Source: Rheinheimera sp. 1928-s (GTDB lineage Bacteria; Pseudomonadota; Gammaproteobacteria; Enterobacterales; Alteromonadaceae). Taken from it: a DNA stretch of 64,000 nucleotides. Positions within the stretch are counted from its first letter, which is position 1; the number at the start of each line of letters is the position of its first letter. The stretch lies in NCBI RefSeq assembly GCF_029269265.1, contig NZ_JARIXP010000002.1, positions 192,436 to 256,435 on the forward strand, given 5' to 3'. The translations under genes and the position numbers were made by a program. Below the pieces are notes generated by a model. It was not told the origin of the DNA. It ran no database searches and saw only the letters and a list, made by a program, of their open reading frames with translations. This document shows, one piece after another, positions 21,723 through 46,035 of the stretch.

Positions 21723-21746
21723 AAAGGATCAGACCCTTGATCCTTT
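21723..21746 (+). terminator. Hairpin after the gcvR-like gene
   Basis: AAAGGATCA/TGATCCTTT with a 6-base loop, 27 bases after the stop. There is only a short T-run, so it is a modest intrinsic terminator. It lies just upstream of the ppk Pho box. Confidence 0.55.
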
Positions 21747-21753
21747 CATCAGT

Positions 21754-21771
21754 CTGTCATAAAACTGCCAT
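21754..21771 (+). promoter_or_regulatory. Pho box upstream of ppk-ppx
   Basis: CTGTCATAAAACTGCCAT: the first 7-mer is a perfect consensus half and the second has one change, at 11-bp spacing, 33 bases before the ppk start. No good -10 is visible at the expected distance, so the exact start of transcription is unclear. Confidence 0.7.
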
Positions 21772-21804: not shown

Positions 21805-23925
21805 ATGGTCTTTGCAGAGTTAAAACATACTGTGAACGATACGAATTATTTCCCCCGCGAATTAAGCTGGCTGGCCTTTAATGGCCGTGTGCTGCAGGAA
21901 GCAGCAGATGAACGTAACCCGTTAATTGAGCGGTTACGTTTTTTAGGTATTTATTCCAACAATATGGATGAATTTTTCCGGGTCCGGGTCGCTGATGTGA
22001 AACGTCGTATCCTGCTGAAAAAATACCATGCCAATGAGCAGGAAGATGCGGAGCAGTTACTGCACGATATTCAACATATAGTGCTGAAACTGGGTGAGCG
22101 CTTTAATAAAATTTATGACGATTTACAGCAGGAACTGCGTAAATACAATATTGAGCTGATTGATAACTTTAAGCTGACCGATGCCCAGGCTCAATGGGTT
22201 CGCAGCTTCTATCGCAGTGAAATACAGCGGCATTTGTCCCCCATTATTTTATCCGCTGAAGAAGTGAAGCTGGCGAAGCATTTAGAGGATAACGCCACTT
22301 ATCTGATGGTAGAAATGACAGGTTCCAATAAAGCCGAATACGCCATAGTGCAGGTTCCTACCGACGTGATGTCACGTTTTGTTGAGTTGCCGCTCCATCT
22401 GAATAAAAGTAAAAAAAGAGGCCGCTTCCGCCGGCAAATTATTTTGCTCGATGACATCATAGTGCATTGCCTGAAAGACTTATTTGATGGCTTCTTTGAT
22501 TTTTGCGAAATACAGGCTTTTTCACTGAAACTGACCCGTGACGCTGAATACAATATCAGCGATACACTGGATCAGTCGTTAATAGACAAAATGTCGAAAG
22601 GCATTAAACAGCGGCTGAAATCAGAGCCTGTGCGAATGGTTTACGACGCACATATGCCTGAGCATATGTTAAAAATGCTGAAAAAATTACTCGGCTACAG
22701 CTCTTATGATTCTTTAATACCGGGCGGTAAATACCGTAATTTCAAAGATTTTATTGGTTTTCCTAATATCGGCCATCCGTCTTTAGAATTCCCGGCCATG
22801 CCTGTGCTGAAAAGCCCTGAGTTTGAGCGTCATACCACAAGTTTTGAGGCGATCCGCACGTCGGATATTTTGTTGTATTACCCTTACCACAGCTTCAGCT
22901 ATTTTACCGAGTGGGTTCGTCAGGCGTCTTTTGATCCAAAAGTAACCACCATCAAAATGACAATGTACAGGGTGGCAAAAAACTCGCGCGTTATAAACTC
23001 GCTGCTTGATGCTGTGCGTAACGGCAAACAAGTCACAGTAGTGGTTGAGCTGAAAGCCCGTTTTGATGAAGAAAACAATATCAACTGGGCACGCCGTATG
23101 ACGGAAGCCGGTATTGAGGTGATCTTTGGTCTGCAGACCTTAAAAATTCACTCTAAGCTCTGTTTGATCACCAGACAGGAAAAAGGTAAAACCGTAAAGT
23201 TTGCCCATATAGGCACAGGCAACTTCAACGAAAAAACCGCCCGTATTTATACCGACATGAGCTTATTCACCTGCCATAGTGAAATTTGTGATGAAGTGGA
23301 CCAGGTGTTTGAATTTATTCAGTACAGCTACAAGGCGTTTCAGTTTAACCATCTGATGGTGTCTCCAACCTGGAGCCGGCCCAAACTATGCGCCTTAATA
23401 GAGCGGGAAACCAGTTTTGCTACTTCAGGCAGAAAAGCTGAAATCACGCTTAAAATCAACAACCTGGTTGACAATCAAATCGTTGATTTACTCTATAAAG
23501 CCAGTATGGCAGGAGTGAAAATCCGCATTATTGTGCGCGGTATGTGCTCATTGATCCCTGGTATCAAAGGCCGCAGTGATAATATTCATGTGATTAGTGT
23601 GCTGGACAGATTCCTTGAACATGCCCGAATTTATGTGTTTAACAATGGCGGTGACACCGATTTGTATATCTCCTCCGCTGACTGGATGACTCGCAATCTG
23701 GATCAACGGGTCGAAGTGGGTGTGCCTATTTATGATGCAGCCATTAAGCAGCAAATTATGACGACCCTGGATATTCAGTGGCATGACAATGTCAAAGCCC
23801 GGATTATTGATAAAGATCAAAGCAACCACTATGTAAAAAGAGGCAATAAGCGTAGCATTCGCTCCCAACAGGAAATCTATGATTATTTTGCTCAGTTGCA
23901 GCAATCCACTCAGGCCGGCACATGA
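21805..23925 (+). CDS. ppk: Polyphosphate kinase 1
   Basis: Reversibly polymerises the gamma-phosphate of ATP into polyphosphate. Four-domain layout: N-terminal YFPRELSWLAFNGRVLQEA block (residues 11-29), head domain, then two phospholipase-D-like catalytic domains. The active-site histidine is in TLKIHSKLCLI at residue 449, followed by HIGTGNFNEKTARIYTD; the second domain has VRGMCSLIPGIKGRSDNI and the RVEVGVPIYD end. It has 706 residues, normal. GGAGCGCGCT precedes the ATG. It overlaps ppx by four bases (ATGA), so the synthesising and degrading enzymes are translationally coupled under a Pho box. Confidence 0.97.
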   Translation: MVFAELKHTVNDTNYFPRELSWLAFNGRVLQEAADERNPLIERLRFLGIYSNNMDEFFRVRVADVKRRILLKKYHANEQEDAEQLLHDIQHIVLKLGERFNKIYDDLQQELRKYNIELIDNFKLTDAQAQWVRSFYRSEIQRHLSPIILSAEEVKLAKHLEDNATYLMVEMTGSNKAEYAIVQVPTDVMSRFVELPLHLNKSKKRGRFRRQIILLDDIIVHCLKDLFDGFFDFCEIQAFSLKLTRDAEYNISDTLDQSLIDKMSKGIKQRLKSEPVRMVYDAHMPEHMLKMLKKLLGYSSYDSLIPGGKYRNFKDFIGFPNIGHPSLEFPAMPVLKSPEFERHTTSFEAIRTSDILLYYPYHSFSYFTEWVRQASFDPKVTTIKMTMYRVAKNSRVINSLLDAVRNGKQVTVVVELKARFDEENNINWARRMTEAGIEVIFGLQTLKIHSKLCLITRQEKGKTVKFAHIGTGNFNEKTARIYTDMSLFTCHSEICDEVDQVFEFIQYSYKAFQFNHLMVSPTWSRPKLCALIERETSFATSGRKAEITLKINNLVDNQIVDLLYKASMAGVKIRIIVRGMCSLIPGIKGRSDNIHVISVLDRFLEHARIYVFNNGGDTDLYISSADWMTRNLDQRVEVGVPIYDAAIKQQIMTTLDIQWHDNVKARIIDKDQSNHYVKRGNKRSIRSQQEIYDYFAQLQQSTQAGT

Positions 23926-31797: not shown

Positions 31798-32670
31798 ATG
31801 AATTATCCCAGTCCACGCCATTGGTTATTATTGGATGCCATTTGCCGGCAGCATAGCCTGACCAAAGCAGCTGACCAACTGGCATTAAGCCAATCAGCAG
31901 CAAGTCAGGCTTTAAAAGAGCTGGAACAACGACTGGGCCATCCGTTATTTCTGCGCCAGGGGCGGCAATTGATCCCAACTCAACATACGCTGGATCTATT
32001 ACCCAAGTTACAGCTGCTACTTGAATTACAACAGGAACTGGTGAACTCAAGCCCGGAAAAAGGCCAGTTGCGGCTGGTCGCCAGTGAAACTGTAGGTTGT
32101 TATTTACTGCCCGCTTTATTGGCGCAATTTACTGCCTTACACCCTCAGATTGATTTTAAATTGCGGCTTTGCAACAGCAGTGAGGTACTGCACCTGATGC
32201 ACCAGCAGCAAGCACAACTGGGTTTTGTTGAAGGACCGGTGTTAAGTGCGGAGTTTCATATTCAGCACTGGTGACAAGACCTGACAGTGCTCATAGGCAA
32301 CCCGCGCCTGCATCAGAATTTATCGACAGAACAGTTATTGGCAGAGCGCTGGATAGTGCGGGAACAAGGTTCAGGTACCAGGGCTGTGTTAGAGCATGAA
32401 CTGGCCCGCTTACACTGGGCTCCCAACAATCTGTTAGAGCTGGAAAGACCCGAAGCTATTAAGCAAGCCGTAAAACAAGGTTTAGGCATAGGCTGCCTGC
32501 CTTTGCTGGCGGTGCAGGATGAAATCAAAGCAGGACAATTGGTAGTACTGCAAAGTCCTTTGCAGCTACAACGGCATTTCAGATTGGTACAACATAAAAA
32601 TTATCGGCCCCCCTTGCTGCAAAAATTTTTGCAATTTTTGCAGCAAGAAGGCCCTGTTAATGGGGTTTAA
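31798..32670 (+). pseudogene. YeiE-type LysR regulator interrupted by an in-frame TGA
   Basis: Reading from 31798, 158 codons end at a TGA (32272-32274). The same frame then continues without another stop to 32670, giving a 290-codon gene if the TGA is ignored. The first part has the helix-turn-helix (KAADQLALSQSAASQALKEL) and the start of the effector domain (RLVASETVGCYLLPALLAQF); the second begins QDLTVLIGNP and has REQGSGTRAVLEHEL and AIKQAVKQGLGIGCLPLLA. Both halves align with E. coli YeiE as I remember it, where the residue at the stop is a sense codon. A single base change or a sequencing error would explain it. Its last 14 bases overlap phoR. Confidence 0.88.
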
Positions 32671-33976
32671 CTGTTTTACGCTTGGGCTGAGATTCAGCAG
32701 GTAAACTAAAGGAGAAGCTGCTGCCTTTTTTCGGTTCACTGAAAATCATCAGCTTGCTGTTATGGCGTTGCAACACGTGTTTGACTATAGCTAAACCTAA
32801 ACCTGTGCCGCCTGTGGCGCGGGCTCTGGCCTGGTCAACCCGGTAAAAACGTTCGGTTAGACGTTTCACATGCTGAGGCGCTATACCTTCGCCATTGTCG
32901 CTGACACTAAACACCGCTTTTTGATGCTGCCGTACCCAACTGACCTGAATTTCACCACCATTAGGGGTGTATTTAATTGCATTGGTGATCAGGTTAGAAA
33001 AAGCACTACGTAACTCTTCACGAATGCCAGACACCATTAAACCCGGTTCAATGGAAAAGCTGATCTGATGCTGTTTTTCCCGGTTTAAGGTTTGGGATTC
33101 CTGCTCCAGCATCGCCAACATAGCCGGCACATCAATATGGTCTTCAAACTGCACTTTGGCGGCGGCTTCAATACGCGACAAGGTCAGCAATTGCTGTACC
33201 AGAGCATCCATACGTTTGGTTTGTTCCAGCATCACAGTATGAGCCTTGAGCCAAATGCCCTCATTCGGCAGGTTATCCGCGTCCATCACTTCCAGATAAC
33301 CTTGTAATACAGTTAAGGGGGTACGTAATTCATGAGAAACGTTAGCCACAAAGTCTTTACGTACCTGCTCCAGCAGTTTTAGTTGGGTGACATCACGCAC
33401 TATCAACAAATGCTGATCGTCGCCGTACTGCAGCATACGGTATTCCAGTACTAAATCTTCGTTAACCGGAGAAGACAACTCCAGTGGCTGGTCAAACTGT
33501 TTGTGCTGAATATAAGTCTGAAATTCAGGATTTCGTATCAGGTTATCAATCCGCTGACGCTCATCCTGTGGCCAGCGTAATCCAACCAGTTGCTGCGCCA
33601 GTTTATTGCACCAGATAATGGTCCAGTCACTGTTCAGCACCACAATGGCATCAGGTAAAGCTTCAGCGCCGTCACGAAAACGTCTGATCAAGGAGCGCAA
33701 TTCTTTATTCTTTTTGCGTGCTTTGCGCTGACGATAATAAATACCGTCAAACACTTGCTGCCAGCTGCCATCACCAGCTGGTGGCGTCAGTTTTTTATCA
33801 CGCCATAGCCACTTGTCCAGCAAAAAAATATGCCGGTAATTCCAGCCAAGCAGTACAACAGAGGTCAAAAATAAAGCAGGAAACAGCAGGTCAAACAACC
33901 AGCCAATTAGCGCAACCACAAAGAACAAGAGAAAGATTTTGCTTAAAATCTTTCTCTTCGACAATAACAAACGCAT
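32657..33976 (-). CDS. phoR: Phosphate-regulon sensor kinase PhoR
   Basis: Membrane histidine kinase of the phosphate response. Two N-terminal hydrophobic helices (about 11-45) without a periplasmic domain, a PAS domain (about 105-195), the phosphoacceptor H215 in ANVSHELRTPL, and an ATPase domain with NLITNAIKYTPNGGEIQ, DNGEGI and GGTGLGLAIVK. It has 439 residues, as in E. coli (431). The ATG follows AAGG. It is 36 bases downstream of phoB, cotranscribed, and converges on the broken LysR gene. Confidence 0.96.
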   Translation of the reverse strand: MRLLLSKRKILSKIFLLFFVVALIGWLFDLLFPALFLTSVVLLGWNYRHIFLLDKWLWRDKKLTPPAGDGSWQQVFDGIYYRQRKARKKNKELRSLIRRFRDGAEALPDAIVVLNSDWTIIWCNKLAQQLVGLRWPQDERQRIDNLIRNPEFQTYIQHKQFDQPLELSSPVNEDLVLEYRMLQYGDDQHLLIVRDVTQLKLLEQVRKDFVANVSHELRTPLTVLQGYLEVMDADNLPNEGIWLKAHTVMLEQTKRMDALVQQLLTLSRIEAAAKVQFEDHIDVPAMLAMLEQESQTLNREKQHQISFSIEPGLMVSGIREELRSAFSNLITNAIKYTPNGGEIQVSWVRQHQKAVFSVSDNGEGIAPQHVKRLTERFYRVDQARARATGGTGLGLAIVKHVLQRHNSKLMIFSEPKKGSSFSFSLPAESQPKRKTVKPH

Positions 33977-34753: not shown

Positions 34754-34771
34754 TATGACATTTTTATGAAA
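34754..34771 (-). promoter_or_regulatory. Pho box and promoter of phoB
   Basis: On the minus strand TTTCATAAAAATGTCATA: 7-mers TTTCATA and TGTCATA at 11-bp spacing, then nine bases and a -10 CATACT (34744-34739), about 40 bases from the phoB start. It lies in a 389-base gap (34700-35088) that holds only this promoter, an AT-rich middle, and the opposing promoter at 35002. Confidence 0.78.
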
Positions 34772-35001
34772 GAGAAGCAAGCAATCTGCCCTGTGCTGAC
34801 CAGTTGACGGGTTCAGAACACAAAACACGCAGGTTTTACCCGTTACTTTCAATGGAAATAAAAAACAATCAATCTGCTTACATTTTGCTAATAAACAAAA
34901 AAGTCTTTCGGATGACAGTTTAATGAACCTTTTTTGACAGAATCGCCGCTATGGCGCGCCAGCCGTGACCTGCAATTTAAGTTCAATCTCTTTAGCACCC
35001 A

Positions 35002-35019
35002 CTGTAATAAAACAGTCAT
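35002..35019 (+). promoter_or_regulatory. Pho box and promoter of the lipoprotein/TonB-receptor pair
   Basis: CTGTAATAAAACAGTCAT gives 7-mers CTGTAAT and CAGTCAT at 11-bp spacing. Exactly ten bases later is a -10-like TATGGT (35030-35035), and 53 bases after that the lipoprotein ATG. Spacing and orientation match the pstC and phoB promoters in this window, which is the main reason to place the downstream genes in the Pho regulon. Confidence 0.72.
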
Positions 35020-35088
35020 TAAGCCTGAGTATGGTTAGCCCCAGCTTTTTATAACAACAGTATTCCCGTAATTATTGGAGATAGAGTG

Positions 35089-37773
35089 ATGGCTTTACGT
35101 AACTTCTTAAAATTGAGCGCAATTGCCTCAGCTTTAGTATTAGCTGGTTGTGGTGGCGGTGATATTAACATCAACACTGGCAATGGCGGCAACGGCGGTG
35201 GCGGCGTAACACCTCCTCCAACCAGCGATTGCCCTTCTTTTGCAACACAAGTTGCAGACTTAGCTGGTGTAACCACTCCAGTTTGTGAAATCACCGGTGC
35301 TATCACCAGCAACACTACATTAACTGCGGATATCGCCTGGGCTTTGTCTGGCAAAGTCACAGTAGGTAACGATAACGCCAACAGCGCCACTTTAACTATT
35401 CAGCCTGGCACTAAAGTCTTTGGTAAAAGCGGTGCCGACTACTTAGTAGTAGCCCGCGGTTCAAAAATTCAGGCTGTAGGTACAGCCACTAACCCTATCA
35501 TCATGACTTCAGTAAACGATATGTTAGGTTTATCTGATGAAGAGTCCACTGCTGAATGGGGCGGTTTAGTTTTATTAGGTAAAGCCCCAACCAATAAATG
35601 TGATCAAGCTAATTTAGCCAACTGTCAGGTTGAAGCTGAAGGTGAAGCTGGCCCATATGGTGGTGATGATCCAGAAGATAACAGCGGTGCATTAAAATAT
35701 GTACAAGTCCGTTATGCAGGCTTTGAGGTTATTCCAGACAACGAATTAAACGGTATTACTTTTGCTGGTGTAGGCAGTGGCACTACTGTTGAATATATTC
35801 AGGTTCACAACAACCTGGATGATGGTGTTGAGTTCTTTGGCGGTACTGTAGATGCGAAATATGTAGTATTAACAGGTAACCGTGATGACTCTTTAGACTG
35901 GGCTGACGGCTGGACCGGCCGTATGCAACACGTATTAATCCGTCATAATCCAAATGACACTAAAGCAAACCGCGCTATTGAAGCCGACAACCAATCAGGT
36001 AACCTCACTGCTTTGCCAGTCAGTAACCCTAAGATTTCCAACATGACTATCATTGGTAACAACTTTGATGGTGAAGATGATTCTGAAGGCATTTTATTAC
36101 GTGCCGGTACTGCTGGTGAGTTATACAACGTGGTTGTGACAGGCCCTGAAGGCATGGGGGAATGTTTCGACATCAACTCTCAGGAATCGGTTAACAACGC
36201 CACATCAGGCGCTATTATCTTCCGCAACTCTATTCTGGATTGCGCTGAACCAGTGAAGAACGCAGAAGACGAAGCTGGCAATGAAATTCTGGATACCACA
36301 GCCTGGTTTGCTGAGCAGCCAAATAACTTCATAGGTGATGCATTATTAGGTGGTTATGTTCCTGCACCTAACTCACCTGCATTAGCTAATGGTTATAACG
36401 TAGCCAACGAAGTCGACGGCTGGTTTGATGATGTGGACTACATTGGTGCCTTTGATGGCACTACGGACTGGACCAAAGGCTGGACTGTCGGTCTGCATGC
36501 TGAAACTGGTACTGGTTTAGATTCTTGCCCAACAGGCACTACTGAAGTAGCCAGCTTAACAGGCCGTTTAAACTGCCAGTTAACAGGCGATATCACCACC
36601 AACGTAACTTTAGCAGCTGGCGCTGACTATGTATTAAGTGGCCGTGTACGTGTGGGTGTGGATAACACCACCAGCGCTACTTTAACAGTACAACCTGGCG
36701 TCACTATCTACGGCAAATCAGGTGCTGATTTCTTAGTGGTTACCCGCGGTTCAAAACTTATGGCCGAAGGTACTGCGGCTAACCCTATCACTATGACTTC
36801 TGTACAGGATGTGATTGGTTCACCTACTGCAGCTGGTCAATGGGGTGGTTTAGTTTTATTAGGAAAAGCACCAACCAACAAATGTAATCAGGCTGATTTA
36901 GCGAACTGCCTGGTACAAGCTGAAGGTGATGCGGGCCCATACGGTGGTCCGGACTCTGCAGACAGCAGTGGTTCATTAAACTACGTTGTAGTCAAACACG
37001 CTGGCTTTGAAGTTATCCCGAATAACGAATTAAACGGTATTACTTTTGCTGGTGTAGGTTCAGGCACTAAGTGCTCAAATATCCAGGTTCACCAAAACGT
37101 GGACGACGGTGTGGAATTCTTCGGTGGTAGTGTGAACTGTAAAAACGTAGTTCTTACTGCTAACGGCGACGACTCAGTCGATTGGGCTGATGGCTGGAAC
37201 GGCAAAATGCAGTTTGTATTAGTAAAACATGCTGCTGACGATGCCAAAGCCAACCGCGGCATTGAAGCGGATAACCAGTCAGGCAACCTGACTGCATCTC
37301 CAGTTTCAAATCCTACTATCGCAAACATGACTATTATCGGTAACAACTTTGATGGTGATGATGATTCAGAAGGCATTGTGTTGCGCGCTGGCACTAACGC
37401 CCAGTTAGCTAACTTCGTAGTGACAGGCCCTGCTGGTATGGGTGAATGTCTGGAAATTGAATCTGCTGAATCTCAGGCTTTTGCTGCAGCTGGAGCCTTA
37501 ACTATGACCAACTCTGTTATTGCTTGTGCTGAAGCCACTAAAGGTGATGTTGTGCCTGGTGTGACGACAACCGAAGCATGGTTCCTGGCTCAGGAAGGCA
37601 ACAAATTAGCTGCTAACCAGGCCGCTGTATTAGACGGTATCTTCACCATCGACACTAACACGCCAAAAGATATGACTGAAGTTGATTCCTTCTTCGAAGC
37701 AGTTGATTTTGTCGGTGCAGTTTCTGAAGGTGATGATTGGACAGCTGGTTGGGCTGTAGGTCTGGACGACTAA
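35089..37773 (+). CDS. Secreted lipoprotein of two tandem beta-helix-like repeats
   Basis: 894 residues. Lipoprotein signal MALRNFLKL...LVLAGC with lipidated C21, then a glycine/asparagine linker and two homologous halves of about 420 residues (about 45-465 and 470-890). Each half repeats GKSGADxLVV, RGSK, EWGGLVLLGKAPTNKC (Q in the second), NELNGITFAGVGSGT, DDGVEFFGG, IEADNQSGNLTA, MTIIGNNFDG and GMGEC. The parallel-strand look and paired cysteines fit a right-handed beta-helix. No enzymatic motif is obvious. The ATG at 35089 has GGAG eight bases upstream; a GTG one codon earlier is less likely. It precedes a TonB receptor and follows a Pho box, so a surface capture role in phosphate starvation is plausible. 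Database names given to homologues (such as transporter) are not supported by the sequence. Confidence 0.85.
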   Translation: MALRNFLKLSAIASALVLAGCGGGDININTGNGGNGGGGVTPPPTSDCPSFATQVADLAGVTTPVCEITGAITSNTTLTADIAWALSGKVTVGNDNANSATLTIQPGTKVFGKSGADYLVVARGSKIQAVGTATNPIIMTSVNDMLGLSDEESTAEWGGLVLLGKAPTNKCDQANLANCQVEAEGEAGPYGGDDPEDNSGALKYVQVRYAGFEVIPDNELNGITFAGVGSGTTVEYIQVHNNLDDGVEFFGGTVDAKYVVLTGNRDDSLDWADGWTGRMQHVLIRHNPNDTKANRAIEADNQSGNLTALPVSNPKISNMTIIGNNFDGEDDSEGILLRAGTAGELYNVVVTGPEGMGECFDINSQESVNNATSGAIIFRNSILDCAEPVKNAEDEAGNEILDTTAWFAEQPNNFIGDALLGGYVPAPNSPALANGYNVANEVDGWFDDVDYIGAFDGTTDWTKGWTVGLHAETGTGLDSCPTGTTEVASLTGRLNCQLTGDITTNVTLAAGADYVLSGRVRVGVDNTTSATLTVQPGVTIYGKSGADFLVVTRGSKLMAEGTAANPITMTSVQDVIGSPTAAGQWGGLVLLGKAPTNKCNQADLANCLVQAEGDAGPYGGPDSADSSGSLNYVVVKHAGFEVIPNNELNGITFAGVGSGTKCSNIQVHQNVDDGVEFFGGSVNCKNVVLTANGDDSVDWADGWNGKMQFVLVKHAADDAKANRGIEADNQSGNLTASPVSNPTIANMTIIGNNFDGDDDSEGIVLRAGTNAQLANFVVTGPAGMGECLEIESAESQAFAAAGALTMTNSVIACAEATKGDVVPGVTTTEAWFLAQEGNKLAANQAAVLDGIFTIDTNTPKDMTEVDSFFEAVDFVGAVSEGDDWTAGWAVGLDD

Positions 37774-37782
37774 GACCACCAT

Positions 37783-37849
37783 AAACTGCCGGCTCGCTGG
37801 CAGTTTTGAATTCACTTAGTGCCGGGCCTCCCTTGGATAAGCCCGGCAC
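37783..37849 (+). other. Two hairpins between the lipoprotein and TonB receptor genes
   Basis: First: AAACTGCC/GGCAGTTT (37783-37790 with 37799-37806) followed by only one extra T. Second: GTGCCGGGC/GCCCGGCAC (37819-37827 with 37841-37849). With no real T-tract they look like partial attenuators or stability elements that would leave the lipoprotein mRNA more abundant than the receptor. The effect is inferred. Confidence 0.55.
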
Positions 37850-37885
37850 ATTGATGTACGAATTAGCTGATAGGACCAAGTTCAA

Positions 37886-40531
37886 ATGAGCAGCAAGCAA
37901 AGTTTTAAAATCAGTCAGGTTGGCCGTAGTGTGCTTCTGGCTTTAGCCGCCACAGCAAGCATAGTGCCTGTATCGGCCCAGGAAACTCCTGCACAACCAG
38001 CAGAACAAGAACAGGCCGTTGAACGTATTGAAGTATCAGGTCGTCTGATGAGTTCAGCCGCTTCCGCTGCTGCAGAGCGCCGTGAACAACCTTATGTCGC
38101 AGAATTATTAGGCATGGAGCAAATCTCCAGAGCAGGCGACAGTAACGCAGCCACAGCACTGCGCCGGGTGACAGGTTTAACTTTAGTTAAAGACAAATTT
38201 ATTTATGTGCGTGGTTTAGGGGAACGGTATTCCAGTACCTTATTAAACGGCGCTATGGTACCAAGTCCGGATCCAACAAGAAACGTCATCCCTCTGGATA
38301 TGTTCCCGGCCGGTATTATTGAAAGTTTAGTCGTCCAAAAAGCTTATTCACCTGAACTACCAGCAGCTTTTGGTGGTGGTAGCGTCAATATACGTACAGC
38401 ATCTATTCCATTGCAGCGCAGCTTTAACTTATCGGTAGGTACTGGTTATAACAGCCTGAACAGCGATAAGGGTTACAGCTACAACGGTGGTGGTGATGAC
38501 TGGATGGGTAGCGATGATGGCACCCGTACTATGTCGCCTGAACTACGTGCCGCTTTAGATACTTACGGTACCATTAACCAGATTAATATAGCTGAAGCTT
38601 TAGGTGGTATTAACGCTGGTAACCTGGCTCAGGCCGCCACTATAGTGCGCGAGTTAGGTTTAGCGTTTAACCGTGATATTGATGTACAACGCGAAAGTGT
38701 GAAGCCTGATTTTGATGGCAGTGTATCTTTTGGTGATAAATTCGATATTGGGTCCTCCGTTTTTGGTGTGATGGCTGGTGTTAGCTATGACAGATCCACG
38801 CAAAATATTGAAGAGCAGGAACGTTATTTTTCAGTTTCTGGTGATAATTTAGTACCTTTAAATATTTACGACGATATTAAAGGTACAGAACATCAGGTGA
38901 AATTGTCTGGTATGCTGAACTTTGGTTTAGAGCTGGATGAAAACCACCGTTTTGAGACAGCATCTATTTATCTGCGAGATACTAAAGATGAAGTCAAAGT
39001 AAAAAACGGTGACAGTATTGAAACCGTTAATGAAGCGAACAGATCCAACACAGATACTTCGTTACGTTACGAAGAACGCTCAATGTTCAGTAACCAAATC
39101 CGTGGCCGCCATATGTTGCCCTGGTTATACGACATCAGTGTTGACTGGCAATACACAGACGCCAAAGCCGAACGTGATGCTCCGGGCGAAGTGGAATATC
39201 GTTACTTAAACGAAATTCAGGACGATGGAACTGTAACCTCATTCCTGCGCCGTAACCAAAACGCAGTGAACTACAGCTTCGGTAAGATGGAAGATAATAC
39301 TGAAAACGCCAGTTGGAATGCCAAACTACCTTTTACCTTAGGTAAAGCTGAGATGACGTTGAACGGCGGTTATTCTTACTTCGAGCGGACCCGTGAATCT
39401 CAAACTAACCTGTTTAACTTCAATACAGTGGGTTACAGCCTGGAACAATTAGGACAGAGCTTTTCAGAGATCTTTTCTGATGAAAGCATTCTTAATACCG
39501 CTAACGGCTTCCAGATTTCCAACGTGACCACTCAGGCCGACGACTATATAGCAGCGCAGATGATCGATGCAGCTTATGTTGGCATGGAAATGAACTACGA
39601 CTATCTGCTGCGATTAAACGTTGGTGTACGTTATGAAGACTTCCGCCAAATCTCTATCCCGTTAAATGCGGATGGTGAAATCAGTGGTAATGTCGAAGAC
39701 TTCCCGCTGAACGAAGATGGTTTTTACCCTTCTTTGTCTTTAACCTGGTTTGTCAGTGACGATTTACAAGCCCGCTTTGGTTACAGCAGCACAGTGGTTC
39801 GCCCAGACTTACGTGAAGTCACACCAGTGCTCTTTATCGACCCGCTGACTGACTTTAAAGTGACAGGTTTTTCTGGCCTGGAAAGCACAGACATCAGCAG
39901 CTATGATGCCCGTTTAGAGTGGTACTACGACGAAAGCAACTACAGCGTGGGTGTGTTCTATAAAGACCTGGATAAGCCAATCGAGTCTATTGAATTAAGT
40001 GGTTCAGACGGTAACTTACTGATGTCATTCCGTAATGGTGACACCGGTGAAGTGTACGGTGTGGAAGCGGAATTCCTGCAACAATTGAATATGTTTGAAG
40101 GCAATAACTGGCTGGATAACTTCTTTGTGGCCGGTAACTTTACCTACAGCGAATCTGAAATCACTATTCAGCCTTTTGCCGGTACTAACCTGACCAATCT
40201 GACACGCCCGTTAAGTGGTCACTCCAAGCACGTGGTGAACTTGCAGTTAGGTTTCGATTCGGATAACGACGAGCATAACGCGACATTAACTTACAACGTA
40301 TTTGGTAAACGTATCGCTTTTGCTGGTGTGAACGACAAAGACGATGCCTACGAGCAGCCGTTTAACTCATTAGATTTCGTTTATTCTTACACGCCGTTTG
40401 AATCTACTTCCGTCAAGCTGTCGATGAAAAACATTCTGGATGAAGATGTTGAAATTATGCAGCAAGGTGAGTTGTTACAGCGCCGTGTTGAAGGCCAAAG
40501 CTACGGTTTAAGCTTTAGCTATAAGTACTAA
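37886..40531 (+). CDS. TonB-dependent outer-membrane receptor (Pho-linked)
   Basis: 881 residues. Signal peptide about 1-32, then a plug domain (VERIEVSGR near 45, LRRVTGLTLVKDKFIYVRGLGERYSSTLLNGA near 90-125, FGGGSVNIRTA near 165) and a 22-strand barrel ending in SYGLSFSYKY. A TonB box candidate overlaps VERIEVSG. It imports a ligand too large or scarce for porins, using TonB energy. It lies 112 bases after the lipoprotein, with no terminator of its own between, and ends at a strong terminator, so the pair is probably one Pho-controlled unit. The ligand is unknown; organophosphates or a phosphate-bearing polymer fit the regulation. Confidence 0.9.
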   Translation: MSSKQSFKISQVGRSVLLALAATASIVPVSAQETPAQPAEQEQAVERIEVSGRLMSSAASAAAERREQPYVAELLGMEQISRAGDSNAATALRRVTGLTLVKDKFIYVRGLGERYSSTLLNGAMVPSPDPTRNVIPLDMFPAGIIESLVVQKAYSPELPAAFGGGSVNIRTASIPLQRSFNLSVGTGYNSLNSDKGYSYNGGGDDWMGSDDGTRTMSPELRAALDTYGTINQINIAEALGGINAGNLAQAATIVRELGLAFNRDIDVQRESVKPDFDGSVSFGDKFDIGSSVFGVMAGVSYDRSTQNIEEQERYFSVSGDNLVPLNIYDDIKGTEHQVKLSGMLNFGLELDENHRFETASIYLRDTKDEVKVKNGDSIETVNEANRSNTDTSLRYEERSMFSNQIRGRHMLPWLYDISVDWQYTDAKAERDAPGEVEYRYLNEIQDDGTVTSFLRRNQNAVNYSFGKMEDNTENASWNAKLPFTLGKAEMTLNGGYSYFERTRESQTNLFNFNTVGYSLEQLGQSFSEIFSDESILNTANGFQISNVTTQADDYIAAQMIDAAYVGMEMNYDYLLRLNVGVRYEDFRQISIPLNADGEISGNVEDFPLNEDGFYPSLSLTWFVSDDLQARFGYSSTVVRPDLREVTPVLFIDPLTDFKVTGFSGLESTDISSYDARLEWYYDESNYSVGVFYKDLDKPIESIELSGSDGNLLMSFRNGDTGEVYGVEAEFLQQLNMFEGNNWLDNFFVAGNFTYSESEITIQPFAGTNLTNLTRPLSGHSKHVVNLQLGFDSDNDEHNATLTYNVFGKRIAFAGVNDKDDAYEQPFNSLDFVYSYTPFESTSVKLSMKNILDEDVEIMQQGELLQRRVEGQSYGLSFSYKY

Positions 40532-40559: not shown

Positions 40560-40589
40560 GGTCAGAGCCAAAGCTCTGACCTTTTTTTT
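40560..40589 (+). terminator. Terminator after the Pho-linked TonB receptor
   Basis: GGTCAGAGC/GCTCTGACC stem, 4-base loop, eight Ts, 28 bases after the stop. It abuts the stop of the convergent SulP gene. Confidence 0.95.
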
Positions 40590-44923: not shown

Positions 44924-45829
44924 TTAGAACTTATGCTCAATACCCACAGCGATATAATCACTGTCGACTTTGCTGTCAAAATCAAAACTGCTATACCAGC
45001 CAAACAACTTGGTGTTTTTGCCTAATTTATAATCAGCGCCAGCGGAAATGCCATTGTCATCTTCTAAGGTCTGATACTGAGCTTTTAACTCCCACTTATT
45101 CAGCGGGTAAGCGACGCTTGCCAAATAACCATCAGATTTGTCACCTGTTGCCACTTCTTTCTGCTGTTGCACCATAGCACCCAGTTTAAAATCTGCGACC
45201 TTAAACTGCACAGTGGCACGAGTAGCGTCGTAGCCATTGATTTGATTGTCTACCGCAACGGATGCATACCAGTCAGAATCTTTTAAGTTGTCATCACCAT
45301 AGAGCAAAGCGTAAGACTGCGCATCTTCTGCGTCAGCTTCATCTTCCATGACATAACTGAGCATCAGCTTAAAACCCTGAAAAGACGGTGAGGTATAAGC
45401 CAGAGAATCGCTCATCCGGTTTTCACCTTTCCATAAGGTTTTAATATCCGCTTCGTAATCACCAAACTGATCCACTTTGCCCTGCGACTTTTTAAGTGCA
45501 GTATCGTGACGACCAGCGGTTACAGTACCAAAAGCGCCTTGTAAACCAATGAACTGGTCTCGGGATTTAATATTTTTCTCATTGGCTTCATCTGAAGGAT
45601 CGACTTCCCACTCCAGTTGATAAACCAAAGTTAAATCACCGTCCAGAGCATAATCGCCTTTGATGCCAAAACGGGAGGCATTACTTTTTAACTCGCCGAA
45701 CGATCCTTCGCCCTCGTCAGACTGTTGTGCTGACACATTAATTTTTCCGTAGATCTCCCAGTCTTTTGCCTGGGCGGTAGCAACACAACTTAAAGCCAAT
45801 GCAATACTTATAAAAGTTTTTGCAAACAT
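44924..45829 (-). CDS. Gram-negative trimeric porin, Pho-controlled
   Basis: 301 residues. Signal peptide 1-21 (ends AQA), then KDWEIYGKINVSAQQ, barrel strands, constriction-loop region (ENRMSDSLAYTSPSFQGFKL) and the terminal aromatic signal GIEHKF. It belongs to the OmpC/OmpF/PhoE superfamily. AAGGAA precedes the ATG. Upstream is a triple Pho box, so this is probably the outer-membrane phosphate or anion channel used in starvation, analogous to PhoE or OprP. Anion preference is not proven: the mature protein is not obviously lysine-rich at the pore. Confidence 0.9.
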   Translation of the reverse strand: MFAKTFISIALALSCVATAQAKDWEIYGKINVSAQQSDEGEGSFGELKSNASRFGIKGDYALDGDLTLVYQLEWEVDPSDEANEKNIKSRDQFIGLQGAFGTVTAGRHDTALKKSQGKVDQFGDYEADIKTLWKGENRMSDSLAYTSPSFQGFKLMLSYVMEDEADAEDAQSYALLYGDDNLKDSDWYASVAVDNQINGYDATRATVQFKVADFKLGAMVQQQKEVATGDKSDGYLASVAYPLNKWELKAQYQTLEDDNGISAGADYKLGKNTKLFGWYSSFDFDSKVDSDYIAVGIEHKF

Positions 45830-46006: not shown

Positions 46007-46035
46007 ATGACTGAAAGATGACACTATTATGACAG
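46007..46035 (-). promoter_or_regulatory. Triple Pho box and promoter of the porin
   Basis: Minus strand: three 7-mers CTGTCAT, GTGTCAT and CAGTCAT at strict 11-bp spacing. Ten bases after the second is a -10-like TAAAAT (46007-46002), overlapping the third unit. The array sits immediately after the stop of the upstream transferase gene and about 180 bases before the porin ATG. Confidence 0.85.

Follow-up and report, generated by a model that had tools for sequence, protein, structure and literature searches.

ElpS of Caulobacter crescentus is a surface lipoprotein of about 50 kDa produced in response to phosphate starvation, and its gene stands in the published order elpS (cc0170), cc0171, gspC-N (PMC2996285, le Blastier et al. 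2010). Later work has used elpS (CCNA_00169) as a phosphate-starvation-induced gene (PMC5172544), and TonB receptors under PhoB control have been reported in Caulobacter (PMC11208175). In Flavobacterium johnsoniae, the locus PUSIV holds the receptor Fjoh_0545 and the FII lipoprotein Fjoh_0546 within the phoBR operon, the pair is strongly induced by phosphate (Pi) depletion, and the Flavobacterium lipoproteins FI, FII and FIII show 31-36% identity to the Caulobacter lipoprotein (PMC8115612, ISME J 2020). The present work covers a stretch of 64,000 nucleotides from Rheinheimera sp. 1928-s (the window) and, within it, a gene pair coding for a lipoprotein of ElpS type and a TonB-dependent receptor of CC_0171 type.

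The reading preferred here, with a probability of about 0.7, is that this pair would form a PhoB-activated outer-membrane phosphorus-scavenging system of the ElpS/CC_0171 kind. It draws on the genes themselves, the duplication inside the lipoprotein, a PhoB-type promoter and its conservation, the pairing with the receptor, the beta-helix fold and a locus layout like that of elpS, all of them computed in this analysis. Inspection of the open reading frames (ORFs) and of the sequence places the pair divergent from phoBR, with the following arrangement (window positions).

32657-33976, minus strand: phoR, above the cut-offs of NCBIfam TIGR02966 and NF008235
34013-34699, minus strand: phoB, above the cut-off of NCBIfam TIGR02154, with its own Pho box upstream (34755-34772, minus strand)
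35002-35019, plus strand: Pho box CTGTAATAAAACAGTCAT, 16/18 of the consensus, 87 nucleotides (nt) 5' of the lipoprotein ATG
35030-35035, plus strand: -10-like hexamer TATGGT, separated from the Pho box by exactly 10 nt
35089-37773, plus strand: ElpS-type lipoprotein of 894 residues, lipobox LAGC, two tandem units predicted as beta-helices
35224-36504, plus strand: predicted beta-helix unit 1 of the lipoprotein, 59% identical to unit 2
36514-37770, plus strand: predicted beta-helix unit 2, the unit chosen for AlphaFold; predicted local distance difference test (pLDDT) 96.1, predicted template modelling score (pTM) 0.94
37774-37885, plus strand: intercistronic gap of 112 nt with two stem-loops, fold z -3.6
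37886-40531, plus strand: TonB-dependent receptor of 881 residues, CC_0171 type, with Plug and beta-barrel Pfam domains

Like Caulobacter ElpS/CC_0171, the window pair consists of a lipoprotein with an LAGC lipobox and an adjoining TonB receptor, and the phosphate-starvation induction reported for the Caulobacter proteins stands beside a PhoB-type promoter in the window. Two Phenylobacterium loci (L146 and L186) show the published elpS gene order together with homology to the window proteins. However, Caulobacter ElpS has the size of one unit whereas the window lipoprotein has two, and, unlike at the elpS locus, phoBR is the divergent neighbour of the window pair, with gspC at a distant place in the genome. 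The PUSIV locus, likened here through its published description, also links a TonB receptor to phoBR, together with a lipoprotein that carries IPR011050, a pectin-lyase-like fold, although F. johnsoniae belongs to another phylum and its receptor has a lower locus number than its lipoprotein. In outline the pair resembles SusCD/PusCD as well, where a lipoprotein has a partner TonB receptor (PMC8115612), but the window lipoprotein is modelled as a beta-helix and matches no SusD Pfam family (PF07980, PF14322), for which reason a SusD-like lipoprotein was rejected. Because of the synteny and of the homologues found at a matching locus layout, the pair is classed, by sequence comparison, as a gammaproteobacterial, two-unit, phoBR-linked member of the known ElpS/CC_0171 kind. 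The literature search found no paper joining Rheinheimera, phosphate, TonB-dependent and PhoB, and in the papers examined no ligand or mechanism was found for ElpS-type lipoproteins.

The Pho box is described by a consensus of 18 positions (CTGTCATAWAWCTGTCAY), and promoters of the PhoB type have no -35 hexamer. Two or fewer mismatches to this consensus occur at only four places in the 4.64-Mb genome, and all of them are inside the window, in front of ppk (21754), phoB (34755, minus strand), the lipoprotein gene (35002) and a porin gene (46018, minus strand); a backwards control pattern gave two such sites genome-wide. When up to three mismatches are allowed, the window contains seven sites against 0.29 expected, a number reached in 0/100 shuffles. 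Fifteen window sites score at least 14/18, of which 14 are close to where one of six genes begins (pstC, pstS, ppk, phoB, lipoprotein, porin), while the remaining site (41635) falls within a SulP gene, and five of the fifteen are followed by TANNNT at a gap of 10 nt. The generic promoter scan listed no sigma-70-type promoter at the lipoprotein Pho box, as would be expected for a class of promoters without a -35 hexamer. As far as sequence can show, the lipoprotein gene is a predicted member of the PhoB regulon, with Pho box and -10 element at a fixed spacing.

Overlapping Pho boxes precede two other genes of the window. Upstream of ppk (21805-23925) there are two of them (21743-21771), and one, which deviates from the consensus at a single position, is the best match of the genome. 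The porin gene (Porin_4, Gram-negative; 44924-45829, minus strand) has two overlapping boxes (46018-46035 and 46007-46024, minus strand), the better of which is followed after 10 nt by TAAAAT, and it is a candidate phosphate-starvation porin.

A scan of genome contigs gave at least 568 confirmed relatives of the lipoprotein, the best 80 of which were kept as named loci (L107-L186); these 80 come from Alteromonas, Idiomarina, Colwellia, Pseudoalteromonas, SAR86, Caulobacterales, Sphingomonas, Xanthomonas, Acidobacteria, Myxococcota and others. Within the genus, a box of 15-17/18 lies 76-101 nt 5' of the ATG in 22/22 loci, the window's own included, and its score is reached by 0/100 Markov shuffles in any of them. 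phoB lies divergently upstream in 21 of these 22 loci, the contig piece of the remaining one (L009) ending too early. TANNNT was counted at each gap of 0-24 nt behind the highest-scoring plus-strand box, provided that this reached 14/18: at 10 nt it is present in 23/23 loci of the genus set (the window's own and L024, from a neighbouring genus, included), in 15/21 from other genera of the taxonomic family and in 10/27 of the named set, and no other gap exceeds three counts in any set. The upstream-box shuffle test was carried out on the 65 named loci with a recognised lipobox, in 37 of which the score is matched by 5/100 shuffles or fewer; the upstream segment beats all other 300-bp segments of its own locus in 24 of the 65, where about 1.8 would be expected.

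These results bear out most of what an initial annotation, made from the letters of the window, had stated about the promoter: a Pho-box-like repeat properly spaced to a -10 and next to phoBR was recovered (16/18, TATGGT at 10 nt, phoBR divergent), and the proposed PhoB control agrees, as far as sequence goes, with the conserved geometry and with a box that is among the four best of the genome, at Pho-type genes. Occurrence of the pair mostly without a nearby Pho box, named there together with iron or sugar control as contrary evidence, is not the pattern of the genus, nor for the most part that of the family, and the window has no Fur-like site with three or fewer mismatches.

The second line of evidence is the constancy of the pair. 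The receptor has PF07715 (Plug) and PF00593 (barrel) above the Pfam cut-off, and its next-best match in its own genome reaches 26% identity. The lipoprotein was found in 22/22 genomes of the genus (in G013 just as diverged partial matches at a contig end), in 121/147 of the family and in 21/274 drawn from the class, own genome included, while its profile matches 63/398 genomes drawn from the phylum, some by weak partial matches. A receptor search of the 147 family genomes (E <= 1e-60) returned the same 121 positives, the identity of the two sets being checked; both genes are present in 121 genomes and neither in 26, and for the 20 of these 26 that were compared by name the negatives are identical for both genes. 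In 119 of the 121 genomes the start of the receptor follows on the same strand at a distance of less than 1 kb, with a median of 175 nt between the matches; the exceptions are G152 (3.1 kb apart) and G053 (matches on different contigs). Lipoprotein and receptor are supported by this co-occurrence as a fixed functional pair, in line with the initial annotation, and its identification of a duplicated 894-residue lipoprotein (ATG at 35089, LAGC, two units 59% identical) followed by a TonB-dependent receptor also stands. In G013, of the same genus, a diverged lipoprotein next to phoB (L022) replaces the usual two-unit form; it shows 41% identity over part of unit 1, in an open frame of 571 residues near the contig end.

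The receptor model (pLDDT 85.6) has a generic TonB-dependent transporter fold, and its nearest solved structures, at about 10-14% identity, are mostly siderophore and haem receptors. A substrate read from these neighbours was rejected since they are generic and so distant. The model's closeness to iron, haem and pyrroloquinoline quinone (PQQ) receptors could still suggest that the pair serves another limiting nutrient, such as a metal complex or a glycan, and that it is wired to PhoB since phosphate starvation signals surface-associated or oligotrophic growth, though such receptors are the bulk of those solved. In addition, an ammonium transporter gene precedes the ElpS-type gene in relatives from Litorilituus (L113) and Colwellia (L114, L115, L128), and the Pho-box score is near chance in three of these four, L114 being different in this respect. 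On the other hand, no Fur-box-like site with three or fewer mismatches to the Fur consensus was found in the 64-kb window, so that iron control of the pair was dropped; phoB, pstS, Pit and PhoD recur as neighbours of the relatives; and the phosphorus-responsive loci of Flavobacterium are reported to be tightly repressed under nitrogen and iron limitation (PMC8115612). A different nutrient is considered quite improbable.

Neighbours were counted in the best 80 loci by tblastn with single queries over flanks of up to 6 kb, so that all counts are minima; some of the weaker matches to PhoB, PhoR and PstS may come from other members of these families. A TonB receptor is present in at least 69 loci, ExbB-type genes in at least 23, PhoB-like in at least 20, GspD in at least 19, PhoR-like and ExbD in at least 17 each, DUF3450 in at least 12 (plus nine via a second query), GspC in at least 11, PstS-like in at least eight, Pit in at least three and PhoD in at least one. 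The PhoB-like neighbours of L112, L125, L151, L162 and L175 reach TIGR02154 in 5/5 cases tested, L125 barely. Six Alteromonas-type loci (L112, L117, L122, L126, L138, L168) carry phoB-phoR-pstS upstream on the same strand, and L127 has phoR-pstS at the point where its contig piece begins; PhoB of L112 and PstS of L112 and L122 were confirmed with NCBIfam. In Sphingomonas ursincola a PhoD phosphatase gene (L170:3078-4769, minus strand) lies upstream of the ElpS-type gene. A role in phosphate physiology, also part of the initial annotation, is favoured by the relatives found beside phoB-phoR-pstS, Pit or PhoD and by the induction under phosphate starvation described for the Caulobacter and Flavobacterium relatives.

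Other neighbours belong to type II secretion. The order lipoprotein, TonB receptor, GspC-type, GspD occurs in Phenylobacterium (L146, L186), Sphingomonas (L170), Xanthomonas (L173) and Maricaulis (L176), and Pfam confirmed the receptor and GspD of L186, L173 and L170, GspC of L186 and GspD of L176. The lipoproteins of L146, L186, L170 and L176 match the unit query at 37-41%; in L173 (Xanthomonas arboricola) a stop codon interrupts the ElpS-type frame, and the receptor and GspD genes beside it look intact. Among 29 phylum genomes searched, gspD was found in 21 (E <= 1e-30), and in 13 of the 29 it follows the lipoprotein on the same strand at a distance of up to about 4.2 kb; in one more, G784, it is a divergent neighbour. 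This adjacency of gspC-gspD fits the role proposed for ElpS, whose overexpression raises extracellular phosphatase activity and whose release needs type II secretion (PMC2996285): the lipoprotein would mainly assist secreted phosphatases, either at the surface or after its release, and the receptor would deal with its export, release or sensing instead of uptake. However, type II secretion genes are not found directly 3' of the window receptor, where the SulP gene lies on the other strand, and the one gspC found in this genome is on another contig (C23); many homologues likewise had no such genes in view nearby. Besides, gspD is a neighbour in 19 of the best 80 loci whereas ExbB-type genes are neighbours in 23 others (flanks of about 6 kb), and ElpS production is reported to persist after deletion of cc0171 (PMC2996285). 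For the window pair, such a helper function seems quite improbable.

Genes of a possible energising system are found near many relatives. Most Alteromonas-type loci have DUF3450 and ExbB-type genes downstream of the receptor; over all named loci this arrangement was observed in L113, L117, L122-L127, L132, L138, L142 and L168, with ExbD in 7/12. In L148, L149, L152, L154, L174 and L182 these genes come directly after the lipoprotein, and ExbD, TonB and TPR genes are present too in 6/6. The DUF3450 and TPR proteins presumably correspond to the Ttp names of the Vibrio TonB2 system, whose motor these clusters near ElpS-type genes resemble. In the published system TonB2 works with TtpB, TtpC and TtpD (PMC6957404), and the DUF3450-ExbB-ExbD clusters adjoining the pair in Alteromonas-type and other relatives are likened to it; unlike in those relatives, the one DUF3450 gene of the window's genome is on another contig, not beside the pair.

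The gap between lipoprotein and receptor deserves separate treatment, as the initial annotation had seen no terminator there. This holds in so far as the generic terminator scan listed nothing in the gap, a scan whose seven matches between 34000 and 41000, against 6.5 expected, are at chance level; it does not hold for the structure of the gap, which is occupied by the two stem-loops. A strong stem no more than 110 nt after the lipoprotein stop was found in 41/46 loci (1/50 shuffles or fewer reach it), and the stem sequences are unlike between genera, that is, they are conserved as structure and not as sequence. A plain 60-nt folding test is weaker (21/46 loci at 2/100 shuffles or fewer), and a T-rich tail is present in 13/46 loci, the window's best stem being without one. 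Receptor expression may be attenuated by these hairpins, which, judged from the sequence, would likely keep the lipoprotein above the receptor via partial termination or protection of the upstream message.

The lipoprotein has a signal with lipobox (MALRNFLKLSAIASALVLAGC, LAGC), and the ORF listing offers an alternative start, a GTG one codon before the ATG at 35089, giving 895 residues. The 59% identity between its units was computed for residues 46-472 and 476-894 over 426 columns. Profile searches assigned the protein to no Pfam or NCBIfam family, and sequence comparison gave no convincing relative among solved structures, the matches to GlmU being weak (E >= 0.005) and short; a known enzyme family was rejected on these grounds. 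Unit 2, submitted to AlphaFold with 65 aligned sequences, was modelled with the high scores given above and with short strands predominating. Its Foldseek matches are beta-helix proteins at template modelling (TM) scores of about 0.3, and only AlgE4 falls below E 0.001 (best E 4.5e-4; TM 0.27-0.29). We are confident, on the basis of the model, in a beta-helix without a close solved relative.

Among charged or polar residues, the invariant ones are mostly acidic (D197, D198, E201, D219, D220, D223 and E251, plus N174). Being about 22-25 residues apart, they would be suited to stacking along a single face of consecutive turns. The recurrence of these acidic residues about one helix turn apart would also suit an enzyme, a beta-helix resembling polygalacturonase or pectate lyase, which would cut a surface polymer, or a plant or algal one, and free phosphorus-bearing pieces for the receptor. 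Moreover, the Foldseek neighbours are largely beta-helix enzymes (AlgE4 epimerase, chondroitinase B, PL6 lyases, phage tailspikes). The related Flavobacterium lipoproteins were modelled on polygalacturonase by their authors (PMC8115612). Nevertheless, the structural similarity is weak, the 65 unit sequences match no Pfam enzyme family and give three weak Beta_helix matches, the conserved polar positions include neither Lys nor Tyr, just the near-invariant R78, H193 and R291, and refolded or immunoprecipitated ElpS is reported to be without alkaline phosphatase activity (PMC2996285). An enzymatic lipoprotein is taken as unlikely.

The number of units is variable: among the 80 named proteins, 30 have one, 39 have two and nine have three, two with a broken or cut frame being left unassigned. 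In the unit tree the first units of Rheinheimera, Arsukibacterium and Aliidiomarina cluster together and the second units likewise, and in thirteen other loci some units are closest to a sibling unit of the same protein, which indicates repeated multiplication or homogenisation by gene conversion. Capture with avidity would account for such multiplication more simply than catalysis, though it is not proved by it.

The PhoB-activated scavenging reading can be put together as follows. When phosphate is exhausted, PhoB would bind the box at 35002-35019 and transcription would start towards the lipoprotein gene, the receptor being presumably transcribed by read-through. The lipoprotein would be lipid-anchored, probably at the cell surface, where its two copies of an acidic right-handed beta-helix may capture or prepare a phosphorus-bearing ligand, capture being preferred to catalysis. 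The ligand would then be handed to the neighbouring TonB receptor and drawn across the outer membrane. Energy for the receptor could come from a motor of TonB2 type, whose genes would lie elsewhere in the genome, and the gap hairpins would probably hold the amount of lipoprotein above that of the receptor.

Several observations weigh against this reading. The gap hairpins might leave receptor expression largely independent of the Pho promoter. In 28 of the 65 named loci more than 5/100 shuffles reach the upstream box score, no clear box was seen in L113 (Litorilituus), L115 and L128 (Colwellia) or the Acidobacteria L169 and L183, and the alphaproteobacterial signal is weak, the upstream segment being the best of its locus in 6/20 (0.6 expected). 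The sequence starting at the lipid-anchored cysteine is CGGGD, and le Blastier et al. (PMC2996285) count CGGG among the signals that keep some lipoproteins of Pseudomonas aeruginosa in the inner membrane, which would argue against a surface location. In C. crescentus, according to the same paper, cc0171 is reported to be constitutive and deletion of elpS left phosphatase activity unaltered, so that both import and the mobilisation of phosphate stay proposals for the ElpS type. With these Caulobacter results and no substrate evidence found, the import of a phosphorus-bearing ligand put forward by the initial annotation is a proposal, and its overall interpretation is supported in part, the ElpS/CC_0171 kinship having escaped it.

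A wider idea is tentative and, taken as a whole, doubtful. ElpS-type lipoproteins may be a widespread unnamed capture family in which stacked acidic faces, probably binding Ca2+, would bridge polyanionic phosphorus (nucleic acid, polyphosphate, phytate or Ca-phosphate particles). Their units would have been multiplied to two or three several times independently for avidity, and each protein would work with a single TonB receptor dedicated to it, joined in many lineages by a TonB2 motor of its own, as an outer-membrane polyphosphorus importer distinct from SusCD.

The surroundings of the pair complete the picture of the locus. A T-tailed inverted repeat at about 40560-40589, 3' of the receptor, was read from the sequence and is missing from the generic terminator scan; after it the SulP-family gene lies on the opposite strand, convergent with the receptor. 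As a whole, the 64-kb stretch is a Pho region, in which polyphosphate kinase, PhoU (NF008332) and a PstS family protein (TIGR02136) are above their NCBIfam cut-offs, and PstB, PstA, PstC and Ppx were assigned by reading the sequences, without a profile.

Lipoproteins related to ElpS, itself described in 2010, account for a major share of the exoproteome of phosphate-starved Flavobacterium (PMC8115612). The Rheinheimera locus offers a clean system for this kind of protein, with one Pho-type promoter, one lipoprotein, one constant receptor and phoBR adjacent, while the variation in unit number, a co-occurrence that is strict across the 147 family genomes, and the confident beta-helix model turn an 'accessory lipoprotein' into a testable import pair. 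If the import of organic or polymeric phosphorus is true, it would represent an additional route of phosphorus use in aquatic bacteria, Alteromonas and SAR86 being among the relatives.

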